A DNA stretch of 23,995 nucleotides from a virus: IMG/VR virus record IMGVR_UViG_3300025132_000296, positions 1 through 23,995 of that record. One strand, given 5' to 3'. Position 1 is the stretch's first letter; each line of letters starts with the position of its first letter. Made by a program: the position numbers and the translations under genes. Of the stretch, positions 1,955-23,904 are shown piece after piece. The notes beneath the pieces are model-generated. The model did no database searches. It was not told the DNA's origin and was given only the letters and a program-made list of their open reading frames with translations.

Positions 1955-1959
1955 ATATA

Positions 1960-1985
1960 TACAATAAGAAAACTTAAATTTTGTT
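1960..1985 (-). promoter_or_regulatory. Putative phage late promoter for the 113-aa/portal unit
   Basis: On the minus strand AACAAA (1985-1980), a 13-nt spacer and TATTGTA (1966-1960) match four other gaps in the late region. The ATG of the 113-aa gene starts 5 nt downstream of the motif, at 1954. It lies immediately downstream of a terminator hairpin (1997-2024), as expected for the start of a new transcript. A host-type TTTG-N19-TAAGTTTT reading overlaps the same bases and cannot be excluded. Confidence 0.55.
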
Positions 1986-1996
1986 ATTTATAAAGC

Positions 1997-2024
1997 AAAA
2001 AAAAGGGCAGCAAATGCCACCCTT
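1997..2024 (-). terminator. Intrinsic terminator after the tail-tube-like gene
   Basis: The minus strand reads AAGGG, a 12-nt interior that can partly pair (GGCA with TGCC), then CCC followed by a run of eight or more T. It lies 23 nt past the stop of the gene at 2047-2595. The stem is less regular than the other terminators here because of a bulge, but the U tract is strong. Confidence 0.6.
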
Positions 2025-2046
2025 CCCAATCAATCAACATTACTAA

Positions 2047-2595
2047 TTACGAATTAGTTCCCTCCGTTACTGTTACCGTTGCACTCGACATACCGCCAAA
2101 TGGATTGGCAGCGGTTGGTGCTGATACAAAGTTTGCGGGCATCACCTCCTGTGATGTTAGCGTTAATGTATAACCCGAAAGTTCTCCAAGTCCTGACCCC
2201 GTCACAATAGTACCGCCACTCACGTCCGCTCCATGTTCTAATCCCATAACAAATACATTACCGTTGTAATCTTCAACCGCAACGTGTGGTCTTCCATAAG
2301 CTAGAAGTTTCAATTCTTTGTTATCTTCTTTAGTTAGTTTTTTAAGTGTAATATTCAAAGTTTGTTCAAAGAAAGTTGTTCCATTTTCCCTTGATGAAGT
2401 GATAGTTTGCTCAAAGCTACTTGTCCCTTTTAGTTCATATTCAAAGGCAGTAAAAGTACCACTCATGTCAGTAATCTCGTCGTTAGTTTGTGTTACCGTT
2501 CCGTAACCGCCGAAGTCCGTAAAATAGACTTTTCGAATTCCTCCAACTACGTCCTTACATGGTTCTTTTCTACCCGCTGTTAAGTTGCACGCCAT
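2047..2595 (-). CDS. Putative major tail tube protein (182 aa)
   Basis: A 182-residue protein encoded directly after the major capsid gene. The middle contains SSRENGTTFFEQTLNI followed by LKKLTKED, then a beta-rich part around residues 100-155 (RPHVAVEDYNGNVFVMGLE and GELSGYTLTLTSQE). A glycine-rich loop before a conserved GYTLTLT strand resembles tail tube proteins of Bacteroidetes siphophages, which polymerise into the tube around the tape measure. Such a protein should be highly expressed, and here it is flanked by two terminators (2609-2642 and 1997-2024). A capsid decoration protein is the main alternative. The tube call rests on recalled family resemblance, not a search. Confidence 0.5.
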   Translation of the reverse strand: MACNLTAGRKEPCKDVVGGIRKVYFTDFGGYGTVTQTNDEITDMSGTFTAFEYELKGTSSFEQTITSSRENGTTFFEQTLNITLKKLTKEDNKELKLLAYGRPHVAVEDYNGNVFVMGLEHGADVSGGTIVTGSGLGELSGYTLTLTSQEVMPANFVSAPTAANPFGGMSSATVTVTEGTNS

Positions 2596-2608
2596 CTGTT
2601 TTTATATT

Positions 2609-2642
2609 AAAAAAGGGTAGGTAGATAATAAACCACCCACCC
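2609..2642 (-). terminator. Intrinsic terminator between capsid and tail-tube-like genes
   Basis: On the minus strand GGGTGGGT (2642-2635) pairs with ACCTACCC (2622-2615), an 8-bp stem with one G-U pair and a 12-nt loop. A T6 run follows at 2614-2609. It begins 22 nt past the capsid stop. No promoter is visible between it and the next start (2595), so partial read-through that sets the ratio of capsid to downstream transcripts is plausible. Confidence 0.7.
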
Positions 2643-2664
2643 CTTTATGTTATTTAATTAATTC

Positions 2665-3618
2665 TTAGTTAGCGGAGTTTGTGATACCGTAGGTAGTTAT
2701 ATCCTCGATAATCCCATATTGTACTCCAGCACTAAATCTCATCACAACTCTTACGTTGTCCGAACCGTCAAGGTCTGACATATCCAAAACTTTAACCTCG
2801 TTGTGGTCAGCTAGTAGACCCGTTCCAAAGAATAAGTTTGATTTTTCAGCAGCTATTGCTTTGTTATCCGCAAGACCATTAGCGACAAATATCTTTACGC
2901 CATCAAATGATAAGCTTCCGTTATTCCACCATTGTGTACCTTGGTTGTTAGTACCCGCAGCACCTAAACCACTTGCACCAAATCCTCCTAATGCTCTTAC
3001 ATAAGCACGTGCAATGTTTTGAGAAACATAGATAAACAAATCTTCACTACCGTAAAGTGCGGATGGAATCGCATCAACGATTGAGCCAAGTTGTGCAATT
3101 ACGTTTGATGAATCTACCGTAGTACCCGCAACTTCTTGACCCGATGGTAAAGAAGCATCCAAAGATACTAATTTTGATAAACCGTCAAACTGTCCATTGT
3201 TACTTGTATTTCCATCCCAAATGCTTTGTTCGGTTTTTTGTGCAACCTTTGCAGCAACGTGTCCTATAAGGAAATCGCTAAAGCTTGATGGTAAGTCATG
3301 GTGTGCCGACATTCCCATTTGAATCGCTTCCCAATCCGATACAAAGTCTTTTTTACAAAGTTGTAAGTTAACTTGCTGTAATTCAGGTTGTAATATTTTT
3401 TCAGTAAGTGTAATTGTAGAAGTAGCCGAGAAATCACAGGTGGCATCCTTTACGATTCCGTCCGTTGCAATCTTTTTAATTACTTCTTTGAATTTAACGT
3501 TAGGTTTTACAGTTATCCCACCGTTGTCAATAGTTGCACCGCTAAGTAAAGCTGCGGAAATGTATTCCCCCGCAAATTCGCCAGCGTATGTGCTTGTAAT
3601 ACTTGTTGTAGTAGCCAT
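2665..3618 (-). CDS. Major capsid protein, HK97 fold (317 aa)
   Basis: A 317-residue protein that should assemble into the icosahedral shell. The N-terminus (TSITSTYAGEFAGEYISAAL) is followed by a P-domain-like part with DWEAIQMGMSAHHDLPSSFSD and a run similar to the spine helix, KVAQKTEQSIWDGN (about 130-145). The C-terminal half has SALYGSEDLFIYVSQNIARAY and NNLFFGTGLL-type beta segments, ending in VRVVMRFSAGVQYGIIEDI, a common ending for Bacteroidetes phage capsid proteins. It is preceded by an acidic scaffold-like gene with only 7 nt between them and by an XkdF protease two genes upstream, the usual capsid neighbourhood. No obvious in-protein propeptide is present; scaffold is supplied by the separate upstream gene. 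Confidence 0.85.
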   Translation of the reverse strand: MATTTSITSTYAGEFAGEYISAALLSGATIDNGGITVKPNVKFKEVIKKIATDGIVKDATCDFSATSTITLTEKILQPELQQVNLQLCKKDFVSDWEAIQMGMSAHHDLPSSFSDFLIGHVAAKVAQKTEQSIWDGNTSNNGQFDGLSKLVSLDASLPSGQEVAGTTVDSSNVIAQLGSIVDAIPSALYGSEDLFIYVSQNIARAYVRALGGFGASGLGAAGTNNQGTQWWNNGSLSFDGVKIFVANGLADNKAIAAEKSNLFFGTGLLADHNEVKVLDMSDLDGSDNVRVVMRFSAGVQYGIIEDITTYGITNSAN

Positions 3619-3625
3619 TTTTTAT

Positions 3626-4213
3626 TTATTTTTTAATATTAGCAATTTTAGAAAATACCCTATCCATTGTTGTTTCAGGTCTTTTCTGTCCGTATAATTT
3701 CATTTCTTTTTTTGGTTCAGCTTCGGGGTTGTGTGTTACTTTTTCAAGTTCTACTTTTTCCTCAACCTTTGAAAGTTCTTCCTTAACGTCTTCTTTTACT
3801 TCTTCAACTTCTTCCGACATTTCTTCTTTCTTTTCAATCATTGCCTTGATTTCTTCAATCATAGTTTTAACCTCGGCAAGTTCTTCTTTTGTAGCGTAAG
3901 CCATTTCTTCTTCTTCAAGATTTTCTTCCTTTGGCGCTTCTTCTTCAGCGGGTGCTTCTTCTTGTTTTCCGATTGATGCAATAATGCCTTCTTCTTCAAC
4001 TACAAGAGTTTCGCCATCCTCTAAAGTATACTCGCCAACAGGTAGTGCCACCTTTTCGTCGTCTGTTACAATAAACACTTCACTACCAGCAGCGAAATCC
4101 TCACTTTCTATAACAGCACCGTTCTCCAAAGTCGCTTGTGCTAATTTTACTTCTTCGGATGCTTCCACCCCAACAAGTTCTTTTACTTTGTTTAACATAT
4201 CTGTCGCTTTCAT
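3626..4213 (-). CDS. Putative scaffold protein, acidic coiled coil (195 aa)
   Basis: The first ~85 residues form a compact beta-rich domain (LENGAVIESEDFAAGSEVF, VALPVGEYTLEDGETL) that I associate with proteins encoded just before capsid genes in Bacteroidetes phages. Residues ~85-165 are extremely rich in Glu and Lys with heptad spacing (KEELAEVKTMIEEIKAMIEKK), a long acidic coiled coil typical of internal scaffolds. The basic C-terminus (residues 170-195, ending SKIANIKK) could dock on the capsid shell, as in other scaffolds. A promoter-like motif lies upstream (4232-4257). The role is inferred from position and composition; it would be removed by the XkdF protease during maturation. Confidence 0.7.
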   Translation of the reverse strand: MKATDMLNKVKELVGVEASEEVKLAQATLENGAVIESEDFAAGSEVFIVTDDEKVALPVGEYTLEDGETLVVEEEGIIASIGKQEEAPAEEEAPKEENLEEEEMAYATKEELAEVKTMIEEIKAMIEKKEEMSEEVEEVKEDVKEELSKVEEKVELEKVTHNPEAEPKKEMKLYGQKRPETTMDRVFSKIANIKK

Positions 4214-4231
4214 AAATTTAATTTATATATA

Positions 4232-4257
4232 TACAATAATTATTAATATAGTTTGTT
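4232..4257 (-). promoter_or_regulatory. Putative phage late promoter for the scaffold/capsid unit
   Basis: Minus-strand AACAAA (4257-4252), 13-nt spacer, TATTGTA (4238-4232). The scaffold ATG (4213) is 18 nt further on, the longest leader of the five copies. It sits in a 50-bp AT-only gap between the 403-aa gene and the scaffold gene and would drive scaffold plus major capsid protein, which are needed in large amounts. Confidence 0.55.
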
Positions 4258-4263
4258 ATATTT

Positions 4264-5475
4264 TTAAATGTCTAATACTTCTTGTATTACACCGTCTTCA
4301 ATTCTTACTTGCTTTGTATTATTATAACTTGTGTAGTATCCATCGGCTAATGCTTGATTAAGTAAAGTCGCATCACTAACAGGTATGCTTGCAAGTGTAT
4401 TTGTATAAACGCCTATTCCAATGCTATTAGTTGCATCGTATAATCCGTAATTGTTTGCAACGTTATTCGTGTTATTAGTATAAGAAACCGTGCTTACATT
4501 AGGCGTACCCGTTTGTTGTGTTGTAAATAATGAACTAGAAAAGTATTGTATATCGTTTCCACTATTAGCCATTACCGCACCCGCTAAGGCTAAAGATGCA
4601 TCTTCGGTTTCCGTCATAGTTAAACCGCTTGTGTTTCCGTCTACTATTTCGGGTTTACTAAAAGATGAAATAGTTATACCCGACGATTGACCTAGTTCGC
4701 CTTTTATTCCCTTTATGTCTATGAAATCGCCCGCAGTATTATAAGCAAATCTATAAATAACGATTCCCGTAGGGTAACCCGTAAACGCATACTTATATGG
4801 GTTGGTTGTAACGGGGTTTGATAATGTTGCAATCGGTTGTGTTGCGGTTGTTGTACAAGCTAATGTTGCCCCCGCATTTGTGTAACCCGATGGGACGGTT
4901 ATATTTACATTTAATGTTCTAGTTGTTTCGGTACTTACTAAAGCAAAGCTTAATGGTGTTGTGCTTGATATAGTTCCGATGTCTATAGTTGGTTGTGTAA
5001 TTACACCCGCTTGTGAAACCGCAAAACCCGTAAAGGTAATATCCGAACACGAAAGGGCAACCGTCACATTTGCGGGTTGAGTGATTGTTTCCGTTTTACT
5101 TACCGTGTCGCCTTTGTTTGAAAATTTAACTTCTTCCGAATCAACAACAACGCTTTCGGGAACTACTAAACTAGAAGTTATTGACCTTGGGGTGTCTGTT
5201 ACTACGGGTGCAAATGATGTTGGTGTTACCGTAACCGTCCCTAAATCAGCACCTTTATAGTTTGCGGTAGGCGTTGAAACACCCCCACCTTGTGATACAC
5301 TTAAACTTGCAATAGTTACTAAACTTTGACTTAATGCTAGACCCGTTATATTACCAATACCTTGTGCATGGTAATCGTCATCGCAACACTCCCTAGAATA
5401 AGTATTACTATCCCAACACAAGCAACCCCGACTATCGTCTTGTGGAACCGCATATCTATCTTTGTAATCCCTCAT
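4264..5475 (-). CDS. Structural protein with tandem Ig-like modules (403 aa)
   Basis: The N-terminus is Cys-rich (CLCWD at 18-22 and ECCDD at 29-33) and leads into AQGIGNITG, a start I recall from Bacteroidetes phage virion proteins. Two diverged ~75-residue beta modules follow, at about 55-134 and 143-216. Each has a SVSQ-GGV or VSQAGV strand, a central G(T/A)..PTSF or PLSF segment and an ending TITQPA or TATQPIA. A related module occurs in the 182-aa protein at 11411-11959. The rest is Thr/Ser/Asn-rich and ends with VRIEDGVIQEVLDI. Start and the protease stop overlap as ATGA. A capsid decoration or head fibre role is plausible from its position between protease and scaffold, but that is inference. 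Confidence 0.65.
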   Translation of the reverse strand: MRDYKDRYAVPQDDSRGCLCWDSNTYSRECCDDDYHAQGIGNITGLALSQSLVTIASLSVSQGGGVSTPTANYKGADLGTVTVTPTSFAPVVTDTPRSITSSLVVPESVVVDSEEVKFSNKGDTVSKTETITQPANVTVALSCSDITFTGFAVSQAGVITQPTIDIGTISSTTPLSFALVSTETTRTLNVNITVPSGYTNAGATLACTTTATQPIATLSNPVTTNPYKYAFTGYPTGIVIYRFAYNTAGDFIDIKGIKGELGQSSGITISSFSKPEIVDGNTSGLTMTETEDASLALAGAVMANSGNDIQYFSSSLFTTQQTGTPNVSTVSYTNNTNNVANNYGLYDATNSIGIGVYTNTLASIPVSDATLLNQALADGYYTSYNNTKQVRIEDGVIQEVLDI

Positions 5476-6509
5476 TTAATTGGCACACAATTAGGAACTC
5501 GTTTACCGTTTTTCATTTTAAAACCTATCATTTCATAACCCGCATAACATGGTTTTTTAAGACTAGCTTCTAACAAGTCAAGTTCTTTAAGTTTTGCACC
5601 CGACCATCTAAGTCCAGCTTTACCACCCCATAATAAGTAAGATATGGTTCCGCAAGCTTCCTTGTTACCCTCGTCGTAGTATTCGCCTGCCCTTGATAAG
5701 TAACTAAACATCCTTTTTATAGTTTCAACACTTATTGGTTTGCCTTGTGCTAATTGTGATGCCCGTACTTTGCCAACTTGAGTTGCACATTTATTGTTTA
5801 CTTTTTTGTTTAGTTCAATTCCTTTTTTTGCGTTATTAGAAACCGCATCGGGATAATCGGAATACGATTCCATTTCAATCCTTTTATCGCCTTTAGCCCT
5901 TTTGTCTTTTTTTATAATAGCACGCACTTCTTTTAATAAGTATTCCGCTTCTTCTTCTTCTATTTTTGCAAGGTCGTCTTTTATAGACTTGTCTTGTGGT
6001 CTTTCCAACTTATCCGCAAAATAGCCTTCAATAGAAAAGCCTTTCAGCTCGCCGTCTTTGACTTTTTTCCAAATATCGTCGTTTAATACTTTCATTGAAA
6101 CCATCCAAGTACCCATTGGTACATTTAAATCGTACATACGACTTTTATCTTGTTCACTTTCTACTATCCAACTTTCAACCGCCGACATTCCCGTAAGTGG
6201 TATGTTGTGTTCTAATGTAGAGTTATTTTGATTACCATTTATAAAAAACAATTCACTTGCTTTACGTACCGTGTCTTTTGAAAAGTATATATAATATTCC
6301 GATTCGCCACTCCGTCTATAAATAGGTTTGTTAGGAACTAAAGCAGCACCCATTAGGATACGCTTTTCCTTATCTACTTCTGCAAGTTTAAACTCTTGGT
6401 TTTTTAATGCAATAAAATCTTCTTCGATGGCGGGGTTTTCAACAACGCTAATTGCTTCGATTCCCGAAATGTCCTCATCTTCGTCTATAACAAGTTCTAC
6501 TATATTCAT
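5472..6509 (-). CDS. XkdF-type prohead serine protease (345 aa)
   Basis: Matches the phage XkdF/S78_2 putative protease family as I know it. The N-terminus is VISVVENPAIEEDF-like, followed by MGAALVPNKPIYRR (53-66), a His in TLEHN (98-102), SAVESWIVE (109-117), GTWMVSMKV (133-141, Ser138) and GFSIEGYFADK (157-167). His101 with Ser138 is a reasonable catalytic pair by family comparison. A second module (about 215-300, NNAKKGIELN then SYLSRAGEYYDEG and LWGGKAGLRW) and a C-terminal tail (KPCYAGYEMIGFKMKNGKRV) are recurrent add-ons in Bacteroidetes phage proteases. It should cleave scaffold and capsid precursors during prohead maturation. It is the first gene after a late-promoter-like motif (6515-6540) and overlaps the next gene by ATGA. 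Confidence 0.8.
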   Translation of the reverse strand: MNIVELVIDEDEDISGIEAISVVENPAIEEDFIALKNQEFKLAEVDKEKRILMGAALVPNKPIYRRSGESEYYIYFSKDTVRKASELFFINGNQNNSTLEHNIPLTGMSAVESWIVESEQDKSRMYDLNVPMGTWMVSMKVLNDDIWKKVKDGELKGFSIEGYFADKLERPQDKSIKDDLAKIEEEEAEYLLKEVRAIIKKDKRAKGDKRIEMESYSDYPDAVSNNAKKGIELNKKVNNKCATQVGKVRASQLAQGKPISVETIKRMFSYLSRAGEYYDEGNKEACGTISYLLWGGKAGLRWSGAKLKELDLLEASLKKPCYAGYEMIGFKMKNGKRVPNCVPIK

Positions 6510-6514
6510 ATTAT

Positions 6515-6540
6515 TACAATATTAATTTTTACTTTTTGTT
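6515..6540 (-). promoter_or_regulatory. Putative phage late promoter for the protease unit
   Basis: Minus-strand AACAAA (6540-6535), 13-nt spacer, TATTGTA (6521-6515), and the protease ATG exactly 5 nt later (6509). The motif fills the whole 31-bp gap and starts one base after the tape-measure stop codon (6541-6543). The gap therefore holds nothing else. Confidence 0.55.
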
Positions 6541-8091
6541 TTATATTGACGCACTTTCGATAATGTTTCTATCTAAACTCTGTGCGGTTGTTACATCGTT
6601 ACTTACTACAAAAGCTTTAACGGGTTTATCTTCTTTTTCCCCAATCGTTTGTGCAAGTTGACTTTCGGGGGCAGCACCTACAACGTTAAATGCTGGTGGT
6701 GTTGGTGTTGACGGTACGGACGCACCTCTACTCCCCGCACTACTGCTACCTCCCGAAACCGCTGGACCTACACTCGTTATTCTTTTAACATTAGCAATAC
6801 CTGCTGAAACCGCCGCCGCTGCTGCTATGGCACCAAGAACGGGTCCAACTATTGGAATACCCGCTAAAGAAGCAAATGCTGAAGTTGCACCTTTATATGT
6901 TTCGATTGTTGTCTGTGCTATCGCTGCTGCCTTACCCGCTTTACTTTCTTCGCCTAACATACTTGCTAAATTCCCCATAGCGTTCGACGCTAAATCTAGC
7001 TTTTGACCTGTCGTAAGCTTATCAACCTCTACTTGTTCTTCTGCGTCTTTCTTTTTTAATAGACTTAAATCGGCAACTTGTATTTTTTGTTCTTCAATCC
7101 CCTTGGCTTGTATTTGGTTTATGTCATCGCTTTGCTTTTGTATCGCTGCTAATTCCGTTGCTCTTTCCGCTGCTTTTGCATCCGCTTCCATTTTACGCAA
7201 TCCCGCAGCAACACCAAGTAATTCTTTGTTTTTTAATATTCTTTGTTCTTCAAGTTGTAAAACATTTGCAACAAGTTGTGCTTCTTGTTCTAAGTCTTCC
7301 CTATTTGATTCGCTTAACGTGTTTTGTTCAATCTTAATATCCCTTCTTAACTTTGCAAGCTTAACTTCTCGACCCGTAATCTTATCTTCTTCCGCTGCTG
7401 CTTCTTGTAAGAACTTTATTCTTTCGGCATTAGTGAATTTATCAACTTCGGCAGCTTTTGTTTTTAATTCATTAATTTTAATGTTAGCTTTTACACGGTC
7501 AACTATTAATGTTCTTTCTAGTTTATTGGCTTTCGATGTTTTGTCCGCTAAATCGCCCGCAAGTGCAAACTCCCTTCTCGTTTCTTGTCCAAAGTTTACA
7601 ACCCTTTCTTTTAAAAGGTCAAAGGCATCACCCGCAGCATCAAAGTTACCGCTTAACGTTTCTAAAATAACATTCCCTAAACTTGTAAATATATCGCCAA
7701 CGTTACCCGCTATAACACCAAGTTGACTTAGTATCTTTTGGAACCTATCTTGCCCCGCTTCACTAGACGTAAACGCTGCCGTTAAAGAACCAATAGCGAT
7801 AACTAAAGCACCAATCCCCGTTGATAGAATTACACCTTTTAATGTTCTAAATCCTTTTGTTACATTTTTAACACCGCCTAGTAAACCTTTAAATTTAGTT
7901 ATAGCACCACCCGTAACGGTGTCAAGTTGTCCACCCATTTCCGAAAAGTCATTGCCTAACTTTTTTGTTTCTTCAGATGTTTCTTCCGCAGCGTCTTGTA
8001 CTTTTTCTAATCCGTTTGCTACTTCTTTTAAATCCTTTTTGGTTGCACCCGTTTCCGCCTTTAACTCTAATACTACTTCTTTTCTTGCCAT
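6541..8091 (-). CDS. Tail tape measure protein (516 aa)
   Basis: The N-terminal ~70 residues are charged and coiled (ETGATKKDLKEVANGLEKVQDAAEETSEE). A glycine/hydrophobic segment follows (VILSTGIGALVIAIGSLTAAF, about 88-108), then a long Lys/Glu/Ala-rich coiled coil (about 170-370). A second hydrophobic stretch, GIPIVGPVLGAIAAAAAVSAGIANVKR (about 410-436), and a Ser/Pro/Gly-rich tail complete it. This is the usual tape-measure architecture: a helical ruler that fixes tail length and carries membrane-active segments. At 516 aa it is short for the family. The start overlaps a 51-codon ORF in another frame (8073-8228). Confidence 0.8.
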   Translation of the reverse strand: MARKEVVLELKAETGATKKDLKEVANGLEKVQDAAEETSEETKKLGNDFSEMGGQLDTVTGGAITKFKGLLGGVKNVTKGFRTLKGVILSTGIGALVIAIGSLTAAFTSSEAGQDRFQKILSQLGVIAGNVGDIFTSLGNVILETLSGNFDAAGDAFDLLKERVVNFGQETRREFALAGDLADKTSKANKLERTLIVDRVKANIKINELKTKAAEVDKFTNAERIKFLQEAAAEEDKITGREVKLAKLRRDIKIEQNTLSESNREDLEQEAQLVANVLQLEEQRILKNKELLGVAAGLRKMEADAKAAERATELAAIQKQSDDINQIQAKGIEEQKIQVADLSLLKKKDAEEQVEVDKLTTGQKLDLASNAMGNLASMLGEESKAGKAAAIAQTTIETYKGATSAFASLAGIPIVGPVLGAIAAAAAVSAGIANVKRITSVGPAVSGGSSSAGSRGASVPSTPTPPAFNVVGAAPESQLAQTIGEKEDKPVKAFVVSNDVTTAQSLDRNIIESASI

Positions 8092-8228
8092 AACTCTTGC
8101 TTAAATATGTTATACGCTTCTTTTAAACTATTGGGTAATTTGTTTTTGCCTAATGCTATGGATGTAAATTCCCCCGTTTGTTTAGTCTTTTTTGCTATCT
8201 CTAATAAGTTTAATATATTTTCTATCAT
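8073..8228 (-). CDS. Small tail-module protein before the tape measure (51 aa)
   Basis: This ORF fills the apparent gap between the 713-aa gene and the tape measure. Its ATG (8228) overlaps the upstream stop as ATGA, and its TAG lies 19 nt inside the tape-measure gene in another frame, so it is tightly coupled on both sides. The peptide starts MIENILNLLEIAKKTKQTG, continues with ALGKNKLPNSLKEAY and ends KQELWQEKK; it looks helical and soluble. Tail chaperones often sit here, but the chaperone pair in this phage is at 12923-13665, so the function is unknown. Confidence 0.6.
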   Translation of the reverse strand: MIENILNLLEIAKKTKQTGEFTSIALGKNKLPNSLKEAYNIFKQELWQEKK

Positions 8229-10366: not shown

Positions 10367-11355
10367 TATTTAATATTGTTAATTTTGCTAAATGCAAATT
10401 CAAACTGTAACGTATGATTTATTAATTTGTCGTTTAATGAAGTTTTGTAAGTCATGTCTTTAGTCTTAACAAGCACAGGAAGTGTTTTACCTTCCCATCT
10501 AATCCACACGTTTTCGGAAAGTAAAAGTTCTTCAATAGCTTGGTTAAAATCCTCATTTACAAACCCCGTATTCATTTGTAAAGATTTAGTTGCACTTACA
10601 TTGTATCTTTCTTGTTGCCCTTTATATGTTGCGTAAGTGAGTGAAGATGTGTTTATAATATTAGCTTTATAAACTTCGTCGCTTACATTCATATTCTCAA
10701 CACTCTTTTTAAACATATAAACGTCTTGGTAAGCACCGTGCTTATTTACGAAAGTAACCTTATAGGGTGTAAATTTGGGTTCGCATACGTTTTCAACATT
10801 TACCGTTGCAAGTAAAGTAGCATCGTCCGTATCGTAAACTAATATTGTGCTACTATTAGCGGGGATTGTAAGATATTGTATTTTTTGATTTGAATTACCA
10901 TTATCGGTAACTTGTGTTGTTGCACTATCTATTATAACCTTACCAACTCCCGCTGCAAGAATCGGTAATTTACCCGCCGTGTTTTCGGGTAAGTATATAC
11001 GTGTATTACTCATTAATAGGTTATCGGATAGTTGCGGGTTTATACCATCTTCAAAATATCCATAACCATCTAAAGCTAAGTAATGATTTGTTACAGGGCT
11101 ACCCGTAGCGAACTCCGTTCCATCCGAATCGTATAATCTTGTGATTGCGGATACCCATTTAGTTTTACTTAAATAGTCATTGTTAAAAGTTTGGTCAATA
11201 TAATCCCTCACAAGTTCGCTTATCTCAAATAGGATATTGTCTTGCGATGAAATTCTTGATTTTGATAATGTATATTTAAGGTCAGTTGTGGCATAAGCCC
11301 CCGACGTTCCATCGTAAATATATAATTGTAATTCGGCTCTATCTAATACGGGCAT
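10366..11355 (-). CDS. Tail structural protein (329 aa)
   Basis: The N-terminus (RAELQLYIYDGT, then LKYTLSKSRI and FEISELVRDYI) and the central segment CEPKFTPYKVTFVNKHGAYQDVYMFKKS (about 195-222) resemble a virion protein found beside the 713-aa family in Bacteroidetes phages. In relatives as I remember them, the N-terminus carries a YARSPFF-like leader. Here that leader is encoded by a separate 16-codon ORF ending 2 nt before this ATG. The protein is beta-rich with no membrane segment. A tail-tip or baseplate role is inferred from neighbours (gp10-like upstream, tape measure downstream). Confidence 0.6.
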   Translation of the reverse strand: MPVLDRAELQLYIYDGTSGAYATTDLKYTLSKSRISSQDNILFEISELVRDYIDQTFNNDYLSKTKWVSAITRLYDSDGTEFATGSPVTNHYLALDGYGYFEDGINPQLSDNLLMSNTRIYLPENTAGKLPILAAGVGKVIIDSATTQVTDNGNSNQKIQYLTIPANSSTILVYDTDDATLLATVNVENVCEPKFTPYKVTFVNKHGAYQDVYMFKKSVENMNVSDEVYKANIINTSSLTYATYKGQQERYNVSATKSLQMNTGFVNEDFNQAIEELLLSENVWIRWEGKTLPVLVKTKDMTYKTSLNDKLINHTLQFEFAFSKINNIK

Positions 11356-11357
11356 AA

Positions 11358-11408
11358 TTAAGTGCTATTAAATTGTAAAAAAAACGGGCTTCTTGCGTAT
11401 ATTCTCAT
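11358..11408 (-). CDS. 16-codon ORF carrying the YARSPFF motif
   Basis: The ATG at 11408 lies 2 nt after the upstream stop, and the TAA at 11358-11360 lies 2 nt before the ATG of the 329-aa gene. The peptide is MRIYARSPFFLQFNST. Its core ARSPFF repeats the start of the 182-aa protein (MIRARSPFF), and the DNA repeats too (GCAAGAAGCCC plus a T run near 11395-11379 and 11949-11934). It may be a detached N-terminus of the downstream gene, a remnant of a duplicated start, or a leader for translational coupling. Confidence 0.4.
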   Translation of the reverse strand: MRIYARSPFFLQFNST

Positions 11409-11410
11409 AA

Positions 11411-11959
11411 TTAACTAAGTGTATCTGTTGTGCATCCTTGTACTAAATCGAAATATGTAGCATCACCAATTACCGTTGGATAACCAGCAGTTTCGGAATC
11501 AAATGGTGCAACACATATATCAACGGTTTCTGACGGTTGCATAGTGTGGTTAATTTGTACACTACCATCAAACGCAGTATATTGTAAAAATGCGGTTTGG
11601 GTTGTGCTATTGTTTGTTACTCTAAAATTCTTTTGTGCTGCTGTTACGGTTGTCGCTGGTTGTGTAAATTGAACGGGACAAGCTATTTGATTACTTGAAT
11701 CGGTTGGTGGTCTAAAGTTACTTGAATCGTATGTTACATAAACCAACACGTTCCTTATAGTTGCGGTGCTTACGGTGCCAAAGCTTGTTGGTTCTACGCT
11801 ATGGAATGTTCCAACACTTACGGATGGGTTTGTTATAGTTCCGTTTGCTGCAATCGACAATCCCGTGATAGAAGTATCCGCACAAGTAAACCTTGGTAGT
11901 ACCGTAGGTGCTGACGATTCCTCATGTTCTATAAAAAAAGGGCTTCTTGCTCTTATCAC
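11411..11959 (-). CDS. Ig-like structural protein starting MIRARSPFF (182 aa)
   Basis: Translation starts at GTG (11959), which overlaps the gp10-like stop as GTGA. After the ARSPFFIEHEES leader, residues ~26-102 form one beta module (CADTSITGLSIAANGTI, then TSFGTVSTATIRNVLVYV, ending PVQFTQPAT). It is clearly related to the tandem modules in the 403-aa protein at 4264-5475. The C-terminal third (VTAAQKNFRVTNNSTTQ, then NHTMQPSETVDICVAPFD) is another beta-rich part and ends with a Cys. Position among tail genes suggests a tail decoration or tail-tip accessory protein; the exact role is unknown. Confidence 0.6.
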   Translation of the reverse strand: MIRARSPFFIEHEESSAPTVLPRFTCADTSITGLSIAANGTITNPSVSVGTFHSVEPTSFGTVSTATIRNVLVYVTYDSSNFRPPTDSSNQIACPVQFTQPATTVTAAQKNFRVTNNSTTQTAFLQYTAFDGSVQINHTMQPSETVDICVAPFDSETAGYPTVIGDATYFDLVQGCTTDTLS

Positions 11960-12468
11960 GTTGTAAAATCTAAAAAGTTATCAATATCTAATGCAAACTT
12001 TTCTATAAGTTCATCGGGCATTTTTAGGTAATTATCTTCGAACGGTTTAGTAAAAAAGAAACTTGCCCTTAATCCTTTCCTATATATACTTCTTGCAATC
12101 ACATAAGTAAGACTATTTATATTTCCTTTTAATCCTTTTTCTTTTATCCACTTTTGTATCGACCCTTTAGCTTGTGTATTAAGTGGCATCTTTTTATATT
12201 GGAATCTACTATTGCGACTTTTATCGTAAGTGCTTTCCGCACCCTTAACACCTTCGTCTTGATAAATACCGTAATCTGCCATATAAAATTCTAAACTAAA
12301 ACTATTTGGACTTACGTTTAAATCATATCCCAAGCTTCCCTCTAAGTCCCCACTAGACGAACCCGTAATAAACTTATTGTTTCGGTGTCTACGTAAGTTA
12401 CCCTTTGATTGCTTAATAACGGATTTAGCAAATATTTCTAAAGCTTGTTTTGTTTGTTCAAATGTCAT
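11956..12468 (-). CDS. HK97 gp10-like neck/tail-completion protein (170 aa)
   Basis: I place the start at the ATG at 12468, which overlaps the preceding stop as TAATG; a TTG three codons upstream is less likely. The chain starts MTFEQTKQALEIFAKSVIKQSK and has basic patches, then FYMADYGIYQDEGVKGAEST (about 75-95). The GIYQDEGVKG turn resembles the Y..fvEfGt turn of gp10/HK97-type tail-completion proteins, which join head and tail. It ends with helical segments (FTKPFEDNYLKMPDELIEKFALDID). Its neighbour is a tail-terminator-like gene, the usual companion. The identification comes from pattern and context, not a search. Confidence 0.55.
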   Translation of the reverse strand: MTFEQTKQALEIFAKSVIKQSKGNLRRHRNNKFITGSSSGDLEGSLGYDLNVSPNSFSLEFYMADYGIYQDEGVKGAESTYDKSRNSRFQYKKMPLNTQAKGSIQKWIKEKGLKGNINSLTYVIARSIYRKGLRASFFFTKPFEDNYLKMPDELIEKFALDIDNFLDFTT

Positions 12469-12926
12469 TAGTCGCAAATTGTCATATCGTTTTGTATTAC
12501 TACATCAAAGGACGCAGTCCAACCCGCTAGTTTGTTTTCAAACCTATCCACAAACGGCTCACAACTTACGTCGGATTGCACTTGATACATTTCCGTATAT
12601 AAGTCTCCCCTTTGTAAATCGTTTATTACCCTTGTAAGTAAAGCTAATTGTGTATTTAATACGTCTTGTTCGTTGTCGTTTCCTACAAACACATCGGTGA
12701 CCTTATCGTTAGATATATCAACTATGTCCATTGCAAGAATAGATATATTAAAGGTTGTTGTTTTAGTTCCTACGATAGCGTTGTTTACTATCACATGGGC
12801 AAGCGGGAATATGCTTTGTTTATCTAAATCAACATCGTCTATTGAACCAAAAGAAACCGTATTAACAAAAGGCTCTTCTTGTAGTTTTGTTTTTAATTTA
12901 TCCGTTACGTTGTAAAACCCTTTCAT
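12468..12926 (-). CDS. Putative tail terminator protein (152 aa)
   Basis: A 152-residue alpha/beta protein starting MKGFYNVTDKLKTKLQEEPFVNTVSFG, a typical amphipathic first helix plus strand of tail terminator/neck proteins. The centre has FPLAHVIVNNAIVGTKTTTFNISILAMDIVD, and the end is NKLAGWTASFDVVIQNDMTIC, an ending I recall from Bacteroidetes phage neck genes. These proteins cap the tail tube and connect it to the head. Its ATG overlaps the stop of the -1 chaperone frame (ATGA), so translation of that frame probably couples to this gene. Confidence 0.55.
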   Translation of the reverse strand: MKGFYNVTDKLKTKLQEEPFVNTVSFGSIDDVDLDKQSIFPLAHVIVNNAIVGTKTTTFNISILAMDIVDISNDKVTDVFVGNDNEQDVLNTQLALLTRVINDLQRGDLYTEMYQVQSDVSCEPFVDRFENKLAGWTASFDVVIQNDMTICD

Positions 12927-13177
12927 TTCCTTTTAATTAGTTTTTTTTCTAGTTCTAACTTTTCTTTTTCAAATGCTAAAAACATCAAAGACTTATGTAT
13001 GTTTAAGTTGGTAACCTCATCGAACTTGGTAATATCCCCTTTAGCGATTCCGTAAATTGACTGATACCAACCCCACTTTGTTCCAAAATTAGCCGTTGCT
13101 CCGTAGTCAGGTTCTCCCCCATCTCTTTGCTCAAATAACTCAGGGTAGTTTGTAGTAATTCGTTGCTTAAATTCCAA
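12923..13177 (-). CDS. Tail assembly chaperone -1 frame (T part, 84 codons)
   Basis: This frame overlaps the end of the 220-aa chaperone gene. Its only apparent start is a TTG inside a T9 run, so I read it as the -1 frameshift extension and not a separate gene. The protein includes NFGTKWGWYQSIYGIAKGDI and TKFDEVTNLNIHKSLMFLAF and ends with a Lys/Glu helix. I recall this WGWYQSIYG signature at the end of chaperone fusions in Bacteroidetes phages. Joined to the first 163 residues of the zero frame it gives a 247-aa protein, equivalent to lambda gpGT. Its TGA overlaps the next ATG (ATGA), further evidence that the frame is translated. Confidence 0.75.
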   Translation of the reverse strand: MEFKQRITTNYPELFEQRDGGEPDYGATANFGTKWGWYQSIYGIAKGDITKFDEVTNLNIHKSLMFLAFEKEKLELEKKLIKRK

Positions 13178-13665
13178 AAAAAAACAAGACCCCCCATAAC
13201 AACATCTAAAGGCATATCTTTGAACGTATCGGCTTTGTCTTGGTTTGTGTAATCTTCTATTTGATACCTATGGTTCTTTTGTATTGTAATCGGTCTATAA
13301 AGAACACTCATTGCCTTATGCATTGTTTCCCAATCGGACAAAGTATTATCAAGGTCTATATATTCGCCTAAACTAATATCGTCAAGCTTTGGTATAAAAC
13401 CGTATTCTACGCCCTTTAATTTAAAGATAGGTATAAGGGGTGTCTTTTGATTAAACATCCCGTTAAGGTCGTTTATAATAGCTTGTACGTCCGTAAATTT
13501 AATTCTTGCAATATCCTTTAAATCAAGGTTGCAAAATATCTCTACCATCTTATGCAAAAGGAAATTGCTATTGCTGTTTTCTTCCGTATTTAACTTTGCA
13601 AACTTTTGATATTGTTCTAATGTAATATCCGATAAGCTTTCGGGTACGTAAATGTTTACTTTCAT
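13003..13665 (-). CDS. Tail assembly chaperone, zero frame (G-like, 220 aa)
   Basis: The equivalent of lambda gpG: a cytoplasmic chaperone that coats the tape measure and recruits tail tube subunits; it is not in the virion. The start is MKVNIYVPESLSDITLEQYQKFAKL, followed by a helical domain with VEIFCNLDLKDIARIKFTDV and a region ending MPLDVVMGGLVFFWNLSNELL. The slippery codons are residues 162-163. Beyond them the zero frame continues for 57 residues (ending GILPSSMRLPT) while the -1 frame runs on as the T part. It lies immediately after a terminator and a late-promoter-like motif. Unusually, it is separated from the tape measure by five larger genes instead of lying directly before it. 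Confidence 0.75.
   Translation of the reverse strand: MKVNIYVPESLSDITLEQYQKFAKLNTEENSNSNFLLHKMVEIFCNLDLKDIARIKFTDVQAIINDLNGMFNQKTPLIPIFKLKGVEYGFIPKLDDISLGEYIDLDNTLSDWETMHKAMSVLYRPITIQKNHRYQIEDYTNQDKADTFKDMPLDVVMGGLVFFWNLSNELLQTTLSYLSKEMGENLTTEQRLILEQSGVGISQFTESLKGILPSSMRLPT
13176..13185 (-). promoter_or_regulatory. Slippery heptamer for -1 ribosomal frameshift
   Basis: The zero-frame codons are GTT TTT TTT TGG, giving U-UUU-UUU followed by G in the correct register (nine T at 13184-13176). Slipping back one base after codon 163 enters the -1 frame as TTG GAA TTT. A GGGGGG run lies about 5 nt upstream of the T run (13195-13190) and could act as an internal stimulator, although Bacteroidota rely little on Shine-Dalgarno pairing. 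I see no clear downstream pseudoknot. Confidence 0.7.
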
Positions 13666-13670
13666 ATTAA

Positions 13671-13696
13671 TACAATAAAATTTATTAGATTATGTA
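13671..13696 (-). promoter_or_regulatory. Putative phage late promoter for the tail unit (variant hexamer)
   Basis: Minus-strand TACATA (13696-13691), 13-nt spacer, TATTGTA (13677-13671), and the chaperone ATG exactly 5 nt later (13665). The hexamer differs from AACAAA at two of six positions. It starts 4 nt beyond the T run of the terminator at 13701-13726, so it would open the tail operon running to the tape measure. Confidence 0.5.
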
Positions 13697-13700
13697 TAAC

Positions 13701-13726
13701 AAAAAAGGGTAACATCTCTGCTACCC
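13701..13726 (-). terminator. Intrinsic terminator before the tail operon
   Basis: Minus-strand GGGTAGC (13726-13720) pairs with GTTACCC (13713-13707), a 7-bp stem with one G-U pair and a 6-nt loop. T6 follows at 13706-13701. It begins 25 nt after the stop of the 81-aa gene. Confidence 0.75.
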
Positions 13727-13751
13727 CTTAACCAAACAATCAAACGAAAAA

Positions 13752-13997
13752 TTATTTCTTTAATGCAATATACAAATAATCGTATAGTTCATGTACTTTT
13801 TTTGAATATTTTAATTGTCCCGATTTATTTTGTTTATATACTTCTTCGCCTAACTGCTTGTTTCCGTCAATGTCTATTTCTATTTTAATATCGGATTTAG
13901 CTTTGCGTTCCATGACATACGGATATATAAATATGTTATTATCCCAACACCACTTTCTTTTAATATAATGTTCTACAAATTCTTTATTTAATACCAT
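13752..13997 (-). CDS. Hypothetical protein (81 aa)
   Basis: I choose the ATG at 13997 over an in-frame TTG two codons upstream; it leaves a 10-nt overlap with the small membrane-protein gene. The chain starts MVLNKEFVEHYIKRKWCWDNN, continues with IEIDIDGNKQLGEEVYKQNK and ends with a helical, Lys/Tyr-rich tail (VHELYDYLYIALKK). It is highly charged and soluble, with no recognisable motif. It is the last gene before a terminator. Confidence 0.5.
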   Translation of the reverse strand: MVLNKEFVEHYIKRKWCWDNNIFIYPYVMERKAKSDIKIEIDIDGNKQLGEEVYKQNKSGQLKYSKKVHELYDYLYIALKK

Positions 13998-14143
13998 ATC
14001 CAAAATAATACTTTAACAAATACAAAGATACTTATGTAGATACCCATTAGAAATAAACTAAAGTCTTTTGCAACTTTAAGTATTGTTTTACGATTGTCCT
14101 TTGCGGTTATATCTTTCCAAATAATTATAAAGTCTTTTTTCAT
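13988..14143 (-). CDS. Small single-span membrane protein (51 aa)
   Basis: ATG at 14143, TAA at 13988-13990. The N-terminal half is soluble and basic (MKKDFIIIWKDITAKDNRKT). Residues ~29-51 are hydrophobic (SLFLMGIYISIFVFVKVLFW) and end IWY, so the C-terminus would be anchored in the inner membrane. The leader is a strong terminator hairpin (14157-14179) only 13 nt upstream. A holin-like or superinfection role is possible but nothing specific shows it. Confidence 0.5.
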   Translation of the reverse strand: MKKDFIIIWKDITAKDNRKTILKVAKDFSLFLMGIYISIFVFVKVLFWIWY

Positions 14144-14156
14144 GTTTTGTGTATTT

Positions 14157-14179
14157 AAAAAGGGGCATTGCTGCCCCTT
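14157..14179 (-). terminator. Strong intrinsic terminator with GCAA tetraloop
   Basis: On the minus strand AAGGGGCA (14179-14172) and TGCCCCTT (14167-14160) form a perfect 8-bp stem closed by GCAA, a GNRA tetraloop, followed by further T. It separates the 65-aa gene from the membrane-protein gene. The flank between 14180 and 14248 holds no convincing gene. Confidence 0.75.
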
Positions 14180-14248
14180 GTTGTTTTACTTTTCTTTTTT
14201 CCAAATTTTTATGTGTGATTGTTCTTGATATTCATTCCAAATCTTTTT

Positions 14249-14446
14249 TTAATTATTATCGTAAATTGTAGTTAATTTATGCTGTAGAGTTATTAATTCT
14301 TTTATTCTAAGTTCAGCTTGGTCTGCTACAGTCTCTTTACCGTAAATAACTGTGTCATCTTTTAGGTCGTTTGTCGCTTCAACTATTTCATTCTCTGTAT
14401 AACTGAGTAATTTTAATAATTCTTTTTTTGTGATTTGTGTAGTCAT
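14249..14446 (-). CDS. Hypothetical protein (65 aa)
   Basis: I choose the ATG at 14446 (MTTQITKKELLKLLSYTENE); an upstream in-frame TTG at 14503 would add an unlikely basic leader that overlaps a promoter-like sequence. The chain is helical and acidic and ends LQHKLTTIYDNN. No motif is recognised. After its TAA the same frame stays open for about 20 codons with a plausible protein-like sequence (IWNEYQEQSHIKIW), so the C-terminus may once have been longer. Confidence 0.5.
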   Translation of the reverse strand: MTTQITKKELLKLLSYTENEIVEATNDLKDDTVIYGKETVADQAELRIKELITLQHKLTTIYDNN

Positions 14447-14473
14447 AATTTCTATTTTTATTGTTTTATGATG

Positions 14474-14504
14474 TAAATATATAACCTTTTTTTTAATAAA
14501 CAAA
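14474..14504 (-). promoter_or_regulatory. Possible host-type promoter before the 65-aa gene
   Basis: On the minus strand TTTG (14504-14501), a 19-nt spacer and TATATTTA (14481-14474) match the Bacteroidetes pattern TTTG-N19-21-TAnnTTTG except for the last base. It lies just after the TerL stop and 27 nt before the ATG. In such AT-rich DNA one chance match is easily possible. Confidence 0.3.
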
Positions 14505-14521
14505 TAATAAACAATTTATTT

Positions 14522-15688
14522 TTAATAAATATGATATTCGCCCCTATGTTGATTATCTAGTGTATCGGTTAATACATATCGACAAGCATCTATGCAATCG
14601 GGATGTTCGCCCGTTGGTTTTGGTAATGTGTTACCATCCTTATCCTTTGCCCACACATATCCTTGTAATTCCCTTTTTAGGTTTCGGCTTTTACTTGTAA
14701 TGTATATTTCGTTTTGATTTATTAGGTTGATTCCAAAGTTTACACTATCACGACCTTTTGCACATGGGTATATATTATGTCCATCACGTCTTAATGTTTC
14801 TATTGATTTGGGTTCAGCACTATCGGCAATTATATTTTCTTTTATGTTGTTTTGTTTTAAAAATAAACTCACATCCCTTAACACTACATTCGATTTATAA
14901 AACACTTCATCGAATATATAAGCATCATTCCATTTGTAAAGTGAAATAATTACATGAGGGTCAACATATCCGAAGTCCATGCCATAAGATAATAGTCTTG
15001 CATCTTGTGGTATTGTATCTATTTCTTTCCAATCGGGTATACACACCCCCTCTAAACTTCCAATTTCCCCATCAAGGTAAACACGGCACCAATTCCTCCA
15101 ATAGGTAGATGTCTTTCCTTTGTCCCTTGCTTTTAGTAATTCCTTTACTATGCTTTGTGGTAAGCTATCGTTGTCTTTATAAGTAAGTGTAACAAAATCC
15201 GTGTCGGGTTGTCCTATTAGTTCTTTATCTACCCAAAACAAATTAGTCGGATTATAGTCTAACCATATATTTCCCGATGTTCTTATTGCTAATTGTTGGT
15301 AAGAATCAAAGGGTATATTGTTACACTCATTAATAAATATATCGGTACGTCTAGCACCTCTTAGTTTATCGGGTTGGTCTGTACTAAAGAACTCAATATA
15401 ACTTCCATTTGTAAAAGTGTACTTTAAGGTACTTTTATTGAATTGACTATCCTTATACCTATGCAAACCCTTTAAGATGCCTAAGAAGTCCTTTAAAGCA
15501 CCTCTACGCAAGTGTGGTATGCTTTCGGATACTACGCTTACTTCCTTACCTTCATTTATAATTGCATAATCTATTAATATAGTAAGAATACAAATAGTCT
15601 TACCCGCCGAAGTGCCACCACGTACTATGCGTGTTCGGTTCTTTAGTTTTCGTAATGTAGTAAGTGCTTTTGTTTTTTTTACGTGCAT
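14522..15688 (-). CDS. terL: Terminase large subunit, PBSX-like (388 aa)
   Basis: The ATP-driven motor and nuclease that packages DNA into proheads through the portal. Walker A is GGTSAGKT (24-31), and Walker B with the catalytic acid is DIFINECNN (116-124). A coupling motif probably lies near IWLDYNPTN (141-149). The RNase H-like nuclease domain shows GMDFGYVDP (236-244, Asp238), IADSAEPKSI (287-296, Asp289) and HPDCIDACRY (362-371). All key acidic residues are present, and its 388 aa is slightly short but complete. It starts 1 nt after the small subunit stop. Confidence 0.92.
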   Translation of the reverse strand: MHVKKTKALTTLRKLKNRTRIVRGGTSAGKTICILTILIDYAIINEGKEVSVVSESIPHLRRGALKDFLGILKGLHRYKDSQFNKSTLKYTFTNGSYIEFFSTDQPDKLRGARRTDIFINECNNIPFDSYQQLAIRTSGNIWLDYNPTNLFWVDKELIGQPDTDFVTLTYKDNDSLPQSIVKELLKARDKGKTSTYWRNWCRVYLDGEIGSLEGVCIPDWKEIDTIPQDARLLSYGMDFGYVDPHVIISLYKWNDAYIFDEVFYKSNVVLRDVSLFLKQNNIKENIIADSAEPKSIETLRRDGHNIYPCAKGRDSVNFGINLINQNEIYITSKSRNLKRELQGYVWAKDKDGNTLPKPTGEHPDCIDACRYVLTDTLDNQHRGEYHIY

Positions 15689-15689
15689 A

Positions 15690-15920
15690 CTAATCTACAA
15701 ACAACGGAATGTCCTCGTTGATTGTAATATCCCTTGTTTCCCTTGGTTTCCCTGCATAGTAATTGTAAAATAATTGTACGTATTTAAAATCGCCTTTTTC
15801 AACACCGTCTTTTAATGCCATGAATGCGGAATCTTCTAATGGCGATAATTTCTCTATTAGGTTTATTTCGTCGGATTTAGACTTACGCCCCGCACCTTTT
15901 CTTTTGCCACCGTGTTTCAT
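15690..15920 (-). CDS. terS: Terminase small subunit (76 aa)
   Basis: A small DNA-binding protein starting MKHGGKRKGAGRKSKSDE, the basic KRKGAGRK start seen in many short phage small terminases. It continues with a helical part (SPLEDSAFMALKDGVEKGDFKY) and a YNYYAGKPRETRD segment. It recognises the packaging site and stimulates TerL, its immediate neighbour. Its ATG overlaps the TGA of an 8-codon ORF (ATGA), which itself starts 3 nt after a late-promoter-like motif. At 76 aa it is at the lower end of the family. Confidence 0.75.
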   Translation of the reverse strand: MKHGGKRKGAGRKSKSDEINLIEKLSPLEDSAFMALKDGVEKGDFKYVQLFYNYYAGKPRETRDITINEDIPLFVD

Positions 15921-15943
15921 CTTGATAAAACTTGATTATTCAT
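15917..15943 (-). CDS. 8-codon leader ORF coupled to terS
   Basis: ATG at 15943, TGA at 15917-15919, encoding MNNQVLSR. The stop overlaps the terS start as ATGA, the same arrangement used between full genes here. The ATG lies 3 nt after TATTGTA of the late motif, the position where the first ATG of other late units is found. It may serve only to deliver ribosomes to terS. Confidence 0.35.
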   Translation of the reverse strand: MNNQVLSR

Positions 15944-15946
15944 ATA

Positions 15947-15972
15947 TACAATAAAAAAAACTATTCTTTGTT
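15947..15972 (-). promoter_or_regulatory. Putative phage late promoter for the terminase unit
   Basis: Minus-strand AACAAA (15972-15967), 13-nt spacer, TATTGTA (15953-15947). The hexamer is inside the last codons of the 25-codon membrane ORF. The 13-nt spacer ends in seven T, and the sequence CTTTGTT..AACAAAG just upstream could also form a weak hairpin, so an AT-rich terminator is an alternative reading. Confidence 0.55.
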
Positions 15973-19684: not shown

Positions 19685-20079
19685 TAAAATTTACATTTAG
19701 AACAATTAAAGTATTTTCCTATTTCATTGATGTAAGATATAAAATTTTTTGGTTTTTTAAAATAAGTCCAATTTCCTTTGTAATATCTAGCGGACACAAA
19801 ACACTTTTCTAATGGTATATTAGTCTTGTCGTCTTTATATTCGTGTTCTACTTTTAAAGCAATACCACCTTCGCCCCATTTATCTATTATCCTTTCTAAT
19901 ATTAGCTTTTGACCCGTTGGTATTTTGTTATACTTTCTTTTTACTTCGCCAAGTATTAAAACATTATCGTCAAATTCTAAAACAAAATCAACATCCGATG
20001 GGTGCATTTTGCCATTTTGTACACCCGTAAAATCTATAACTTGTTTTATTTGGTTTCTATTTCTTATTAAACTATCCAA
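19684..20079 (-). CDS. PD-(D/E)XK-like protein with C-terminal CSKC (131 aa)
   Basis: I accept the TTG start at 20079, because the first downstream ATG would cut into the conserved start VIDFTGVQNGKMHPSDVDFV (14-33). Asp30 and Glu43-Val-Lys45 (ILGEVKRK) give the D..E-x-K signature, followed by TGQKLILERIIDKW, a motif pair I recall from Bacteroidetes phage proteins of unknown function. The C-terminal FNCSKCKF may bind metal. A nuclease fold is likely; activity and substrate are unknown. It overlaps the upstream gene by 8 nt and the downstream one as TAATG. Confidence 0.55.
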   Translation of the reverse strand: MDSLIRNRNQIKQVIDFTGVQNGKMHPSDVDFVLEFDDNVLILGEVKRKYNKIPTGQKLILERIIDKWGEGGIALKVEHEYKDDKTNIPLEKCFVSARYYKGNWTYFKKPKNFISYINEIGKYFNCSKCKF

Positions 20080-23875: not shown

Positions 23876-23904
23876 ACTAACCCGCCAAAGTTAGTTTTTT
23901 TTTT
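23876..23904 (+). terminator. Hairpin followed by T10 on the plus strand
   Basis: Plus-strand ACTAAC and GTTAGT form a 6-bp stem around an 8-nt loop, followed by ten T. This would end transcription only on the plus strand, where no gene is seen. On the minus strand the same bases lie inside the early promoter and start of the leader. The A-tract there may matter for promoter bending, so the terminator reading is weak. Confidence 0.25.

Follow-up and report, generated by a model that had tools for sequence, protein, structure and literature searches.

A conserved putative bipartite late-promoter class and its probable ECF-like sigma factor in a virus probably infecting marine Bacteroidota

The viral sequence IMGVR_UViG_3300025132_000296 (IMG/VR; positions 1 to 23,995, analysed here as one stretch of 23,995 nucleotides and called the window) carries a bipartite motif, AACAAA-N13-TATTGTA, on its minus strand ahead of five late genes, in four exact copies and one variant with TACATA as its first box (Table 1). 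Judged from sequence, this motif very likely supplies the -35 and -10 elements of late promoters of one class, read by host core RNA polymerase carrying an extracytoplasmic function (ECF)-like sigma factor encoded by the phage. The virus is probably one of marine Bacteroidota bacteria. The initial annotation had proposed a phage-specific late promoter class, and that reading is supported, as none of three findings that would speak against it (equal frequency in shuffled sequence or inside genes, or absence from the homologous gaps of relatives) held. All five sites were located at the positions, on the strand, and with the spacing given there.

Table 1. Putative late promoters, the candidate sigma factor gene, and associated features of the window
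Feature	Position	Strand	Elements or basis	Distance to start codon
P1, putative late promoter, terS (15690-15920)/terL	15947..15972	-	AACAAA 15972-15967, TATTGTA 15953-15947	26 nt to terS ATG
P2, putative late promoter, 220-aa gene (13003-13665)	13671..13696	-	TACATA 13696-13691, TATTGTA 13677-13671	5 nt to ATG
P3, putative late promoter, head protease gene (5472-6509)	6515..6540	-	AACAAA 6540-6535, TATTGTA 6521-6515	5 nt to ATG
P4, putative late promoter, putative scaffold gene (3626-4213)	4232..4257	-	AACAAA 4257-4252, TATTGTA 4238-4232	18 nt to ATG
P5, putative late promoter, 113-aa gene/portal	1960..1985	-	AACAAA 1985-1980, TATTGTA 1966-1960	5 nt to the ATG of 1954
ECF-like sigma factor gene (181 aa, GTG start), proposed reader of P1-P5	20475..21020	-	profile and predicted fold	
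138-aa gene overlapping the end of the sigma gene	20072..20488	-	conserved neighbour of the sigma gene	
Candidate host-type early promoter, before 80-aa gene (23597-23839)	23886..23916	-	TTG-N20-TAACTTTG; weak lead	

The exact dyad was absent from 493 of 500 dinucleotide-shuffled windows and occurred once in the other 7, compared with four real copies, and the motif is thus rarer in shuffled sequence. A scan of the window allowing two mismatches or fewer found 8 matches with 4.9 expected, no excess over chance; significance in the window therefore rests on the exact copies. When every dyad of a 6-mer and a 7-mer separated by 3 to 25 nt was counted on the coding strand without supervision, AACAAA/TATTGTA came joint first with four copies, tied with two low-complexity GAA-type dyads, and 6 of 100 shuffles reached at least four copies. 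The window by itself is therefore borderline evidence, suggestive only, and the relatives carry the argument. Consensus sigma-70 promoters, scanned for in positions 1-17000, numbered 57 with 59.5 expected. Other minus-strand copies of TATTGTA had been reported near 4067, 16112, and 20801; the first and last are correct, and the second lies at 16121. The plus strand holds 13 further copies.

Relatives were drawn from viral contigs by a terL search (at least 80 loci) and a sigma search (63 loci), and a sigma profile search covered the best 80 of 520 relatives. Thirty-four relative records were fetched, 22 of which carry the motif of the window and 12 of which do not. With spacings of 0 to 30 nt scanned, the exact dyad occurred 51 times in sense and never in antisense orientation at a spacing of 13, and at most 6 times at any other spacing (overlapping loci unmerged). 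The form WACAWA-N13-TATTGTW was found at 88 sites in 27 of 39 records, in a single orientation per record, and a reversed-pattern control gave two matches.

The window and the 22 motif-bearing relatives together hold 97 relaxed sites, all on the coding strand and, with 8 duplicates removed, 89 of them distinct. Strict sites numbered 84 compared with 0 to 4 in 20 shuffled sets. The motif is present at the homologous gaps of relatives: 93 of the 97 sites fall in the five late gaps (protease, 21; 220-aa gene, 21; scaffold, 19; terS, 16; 113-aa gene, 16), 7 of these having been assigned by hand where a gene start was mis-called or a contig ended. The early block has none, in agreement with the earlier observation that early-region gaps lack the motif. 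The rest are one site after the portal gene of record G013, where an ATG likewise stands 5 nt beyond the box, and three truly within the protease open reading frame (ORF), which fit only the relaxed TATTATA form. Nor is the motif scattered inside genes: of the 89 distinct sites, gaps hold 78, and another 8 come just ahead of a start codon but within an ORF that is mis-called at its start or overlaps the gap. Box conservation among sites selected by the motif is circular and was not used; regions anchored by gene start were taken instead. At the protease gene (n = 26) the two boxes had a mean column conservation of 0.83 and 0.79, the spacer 0.64, and the upstream sequence 0.51, and at the 113-aa gene (n = 16) the boxes again gave 0.83 and 0.79 versus 0.68 and 0.68. 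Both promoter patterns considered below, TATTRTW and YGTTWW, were absent from all 216 control regions, which lie ahead of terL, capsid, tail182, portal, and g152.

Profile searches and a predicted structure point to the 181-aa product of the early block, laid out as region 2 (about residues 1-83) and region 4 (about 101-171), as an ECF-like sigma factor and the likely reader of the late motif. It matches TIGR02937 (sigma70-ECF; E 1.1e-9, 38.1 bits), the Bacteroidota ECF family TIGR02985 (E 1.9e-10), and phrog_1740, 'RNA polymerase sigma factor' (E 1.5e-4); Pfam gave only a weak signal, to UPF0122. All 41 members of the sigma alignment match TIGR02937 at E values up to 0.1 (best, 1.7e-10). The AlphaFold2 model (pLDDT 83, pTM 0.42) predicts two helical domains that resemble sigma regions 2 and 4, in an uncertain arrangement. 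Its region-4 part aligns with E. coli sigma-E region 4 on -35 DNA (2h27_D; Z 9.5, root-mean-square deviation 1.6, 69 residues aligned) and its region-2 part with sigma-E region 2 on -10 DNA (4lup_A; Z 8.6, root-mean-square deviation 3.0, 79 aligned), and the top rows of a Foldseek search of the PDB were titled ECF sigma factors or initiation complexes holding one. In a fold search of BFVD, the phiEco32-like phage GAP52 appeared with its ECF sigma at rank 29 (E 0.018).

At E 0.001, one such sigma per record was detected in 22 of 23 records. Among the fetched records, 21 of the 22 with the window's motif have a called sigma gene, 54-97% identical to that of the window, and 11 of the 12 without this motif have one that is 34-42% identical. 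Searching 50,697 phage records by tblastn with three of the sigmas gave no match at E 0.01. Two conserved peptide patterns run against 84,980 species genomes found a sigma match (49%) on one contig of a Bacteroidetes metagenome-assembled genome. This 5.7-kb contig (CANHGM010000057.1), perhaps a phage contig binned with a host, lacks all three motif forms. Among viral structures, the sigma of the window is matched best by BFVD A0A516LNX5, which is 88% identical over the full length, so that a near relative exists in UniProt.

The -10 box differs with the distance of the sigma. This comparison is based on a table of 230 distinct regions upstream of the five genes, with TATTRTW tested first and 321 identical regions (including control genes) dropped. 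Where the sigma is at least 54% identical to that of the window, 113 of 129 late regions carry TATTRTW and the other 16 neither form. At 50-54% identity there are four with TATTRTW and five with none, and below 50% YGTTWW is found in 25 of 37, TATTRTW in 1, and neither in 11. Fragments on which the sigma was unseen gave 44 with TATTRTW and 11 with none. The lone TATTRTW region accompanying a sigma below 50% (scaffold gap of G025) can alternatively be read as AACA-N15-TGTTTA. The 'ACA' of the -35 box and the spacing are maintained while the -10 box differs: late gaps of group B (sigma 41-42% identical) have [AT]ACA-N15-[CT]GTT[TA], and group C (34-38%) has AACA-N14/15-CGTTATCA, with five sites each in G029, G030, G031, and G033 and two additional, chance-like matches in G030. 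Because several unrelated gaps of a genome differ together, the difference points to a protein that would read all of them.

TACA is retained at the 220-aa gap in group B and in near relatives with well-placed starts, and the group C relatives have AACA there. Since relatives keep TACA at this gap, the TACATA box of P2 is not a decayed copy. The TACA at 13691-13696 (minus strand) looks as if the strength of the 220-aa promoter were set differently.

A comparable arrangement is found in cultured phages. The capsid search matched only the Nonlabens (Persicivirga) phages P12024S and P12024L (four records, 29.6% identity), in which an annotated hypothetical protein with Sigma-70 region 2 is encoded shortly before terL (TIGR02937, E 5e-7). 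P12024S has seven sense and no antisense AACA-N15/16-CGTTA[AC]T sites (0 to 2 in 300 shuffles), which precede gp01, gp05, gp08, gp35, gp41, gp44, and gp45, each with an ATG 4-5 nt past the box; P12024L has six, with none in antisense. Both phages thus resemble the window in having a sigma gene and repeated bipartite AACA-type sites. They are unlike it in that the -10 box is CGTTAAT, the sites are more numerous, the gene order is another, and no promoter appears in the annotation shown. Phage Fpv5 (terL 49% identical, no sigma match) has no copy of the window's form and one antisense match to the group B form.

Several points weigh against the reading of the motif as a late promoter class served by this sigma. 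Its TIGR02937 score is below the NCBI curated naming cut-off of 42.9 bits, which none of 23 records exceeds, and we therefore term the protein ECF-like and not a named member; a single PDB row in the Foldseek search has an E value below 0.001 (6dv9_F, 7.7e-4), and Z scores of about 9 are common among small helical proteins. At the scaffold gap the ATG stands at varying distances and a -10 window anchored by gene start is unconserved (0 of 17 at 5 nt), and 43 of the 230 late regions fit neither -10 form, some through mis-called starts and some genuinely. G032 (sigma 38%) lacks any such site, G034 has none at the five gaps, and in the most distant sigma group AACA-N14-CGTTAT occurs 18 times in sense but also 5 times in antisense. 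Both the YGTTWW form and the P12024 form are post hoc, having been defined once the respective genomes (those of groups B and C, and of P12024) had been viewed; the P12024 sigma is too distant from that of the window for detection by tblastn. Because the TATTRTW/YGTTWW difference follows clades, the split may reflect only a few events. Region-by-region comparison of the sigmas found no residue-level link to the changing -10 box, since the conservation of region 4 versus region 2 was mixed: region 4 is better conserved between groups A and B (0.50 versus 0.41) but not between groups A and C (0.35 versus 0.36). Sigma binding, transcription, its timing, and the start sites are predictions from sequence.

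The position of the box relative to the start codon suggests a further property. In 56 of the 78 distinct gap sites the first ATG lies 3-7 nt past the box: 44 sites have it at 5 nt, 5 at 3 nt, 6 at 6 nt, and 1 at 7 nt. It is farther away at 20 sites, and 2 have none in the first 60 nt. Where protease is the next called gene the distance is 5 nt in all 19 distinct sites, and among regions chosen by gene start the box stands exactly 5 nt upstream in 20 of 26 for protease, 12 of 16 for the 113-aa gene, 37 of 54 for the 220-aa gene, and none of 17 for scaffold. With phages 7-11 and phiEco32, transcription by the phage sigma starts 6-9 bp from the box (PMC8948821; for the direction of this offset its results print 'downstream' and its discussion 'upstream'), and the start would therefore coincide with the ATG here. 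According to Zheng et al., leaderless genes are marked by a -10-like signal some 10-12 bp upstream of the start codon (PMC3160421). Because the first ATG follows the box so closely at most gap sites, the late mRNAs are predicted to be leaderless. Such messages would be unusual by the standard of Flavobacterium johnsoniae, in which 87% of predicted transcripts have leaders longer than 10 nt (PMC6847099). Between P1 and terS, an 8-codon reading frame (15917-15943, minus strand) ends in a TGA that overlaps the terS ATG, and a AATAATCAA..TTTTCAA-like leader is kept there in many relatives; this frame or leader may act in translational coupling or as a packaging site.

The same closeness to the start codon would be expected if the motif were not a promoter but an A-rich, Kozak-like translation-start signal in a phage of Shine-Dalgarno-lacking bacteria. 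At the 44 sites with the ATG exactly 5 nt past the box, the last A of TATTGTA would be at -6, where an A aids initiation in F. johnsoniae (PMC6847099). However, the box is unchanged at 12-33 nt from other starts, it is accompanied by a second box 13 nt upstream, and the starts of capsid, tail182, portal, terL, and g152 have none (0/216); we regard a start signal as highly improbable. A single-subunit phage RNA polymerase, as in T7-like phages, would also agree with a strong motif confined to late gaps on one strand, but the motif is bipartite, which is sigma-like, and none of nine larger proteins of G001 matches a polymerase in Pfam. This relative is probably complete because it has a 77-bp terminal repeat, and the scan took in its portal protein and eight proteins without a counterpart in the window; of these nine, the 803-aa protein is assigned to DUF7483/laminin-G, and two are without any match. 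A search for PF00940 gave no match in the 23 records, but the control genomes were equally silent, so that this search is uninformative. The chance that such a polymerase reads the sites is very small.

Alternatively, the sites could serve as promoters or operators for a different reader, namely an ECF sigma of the host, its primary sigma together with an activator, or a further phage protein such as that of the 138-aa gene, and the phage sigma would act on other targets. The kinship of the sigma to the Bacteroidota family TIGR02985 and the conserved 138-aa gene beside it would fit such a reader, which we nevertheless consider improbable. The -35/-10 geometry of the motif is that of ECF sigma factors, and the -10 box differs where the phage sigma is distant. 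In addition, TATTGTA does not fit the -7 element of the Flavobacterium primary promoter, TAHHTTTG (PMC6847099); the initial annotation had noted a mismatch to the host pattern TTTG/TAnnTTTG.

With the phage sigma as the preferred reader, late expression might proceed as follows. The sigma gene, situated in the early block, would be transcribed first from host-type promoters, and its product would then direct host core RNA polymerase to five promoters of the general form [AT]ACA-N15-TATTGT[AT], serving the terS/terL, 220-aa/tail, protease, scaffold/capsid, and 113-aa/portal units, as their position and the covariation suggest. At three of these promoters only 5 nt separate the -10 box from the ATG; transcription would then start at the start codon or no more than 2-3 nt from it, and the messages would be leaderless. 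A candidate for a host-type early promoter precedes the 80-aa gene that heads the early genes; it is not significant by itself, because the loose pattern matches six times in sense and four times in antisense in the window.

Dedicated late promoters read by a phage sigma factor are already known, the closest being those of 7-11 and phiEco32 (PMC4331800, PMC8948821). A listing-level search of the openly licensed PMC literature found no phage sigma/late-promoter system described in Bacteroidota phages. Phage 7-11, with sigma SaPh711_gp47 and late promoters GTAAtg-(16)-aCTA, is like the window in its phage sigma with region 4, its use of host RNA polymerase, and its bipartite promoters ahead of late genes, and unlike it in motif sequence and host phylum (PMC8948821). 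PhiEco32 uses sigma gp36 and the promoter tAATGTAtA, a box resembling TATTGTA, with starts 6-8 bp downstream; in contrast to the window, which has a -35 box and a region 4, it is described as having a single element and a sigma without region 4 (PMC8948821). As with late promoters of the 7-11 and phiEco32 type, several copies of the window's motif stand before late genes and none before early genes. Cellular ECF promoters, such as those of E. coli sigma-E (GGAACTT) and B. subtilis SigW (TGAAAC-N16-CGTA), share with the phage sites an AAC core in the -35 box, about N16 to the -10 box, and a CGT-type -10 box as in the divergent groups and P12024; they are unlike the window's own group, in which the -10 box is TATTGTA.

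The 138-aa gene is the next called gene after the sigma gene in 26 of 33 contigs, frequently with overlap, and its product could, from this association, be a partner of the sigma. Its structure model has a pLDDT of 68 and no PDB fold match under E 6. Cysteines C72 and C117 are invariant, and C52 and C54 nearly so. In the distant groups the 138-aa protein is 47-59% identical compared with 34-42% for the sigma, and in the near group it is not better kept than the sigma.

No megablast match to the window was found among the 50,697 phage records (very near records were possibly excluded). Its listed genes are all on the minus strand; the high coordinates hold early genes (ssDNA-binding protein, helicase, exonuclease-type protein, and methyltransferase) and the low coordinates late genes, including terL (Pfam PF17288/PF04466) and head protease (PF14550). 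Scaffold, capsid, portal, and tail are putative names, having been given by the initial annotation or by position, and its 'tail chaperone' label for 13003-13665 could not be confirmed, the sole match being phrog_32199 of unknown function. The relatives of terL, capsid, and sigma suggest a Bacteroidota host, probably of the Flavobacteriia. Hairpins with a T run behind them occur immediately ahead of two late promoters (13704-13729 and 2000-2027, minus strand) and of the 182-aa gene (2619-2642, minus strand), and by eye they are seen in relatives too; late units may thus be bounded by a terminator and then a promoter. The total of a terminator scan was not above chance (9 found, 9.9 expected). 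Directly before the terS promoter lies a 92-aa gene (16031-16309, minus strand) that matches phrog_28741 of unknown function and that we take to be reminiscent of SET-domain proteins. It is rarer in relatives than the neighbouring DnaA-C-like gene (23 versus 97 matches, overlapping loci included).

The conserved motif is real, its role as a promoter class very likely, and its sigma probable. The chances are about even that, in a large and mostly uncultured group of Bacteroidota phages, late promoters are fused to start codons and yield leaderless late mRNAs, with all -10 boxes replaced in concert with the sigma at least once. The system would constitute a sigma regulon that Bacteroidota phages encode themselves. 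Its matched sigma/promoter pairs at graded divergence would be useful for studying how sigma specificity changes, and P12024S and P12024L form a cultured pair that offers a test system. If the late messages are leaderless, they would be unlike the host's own messages, which mostly have leaders, and would bear on how the ribosomes of Shine-Dalgarno-free bacteria start translation.

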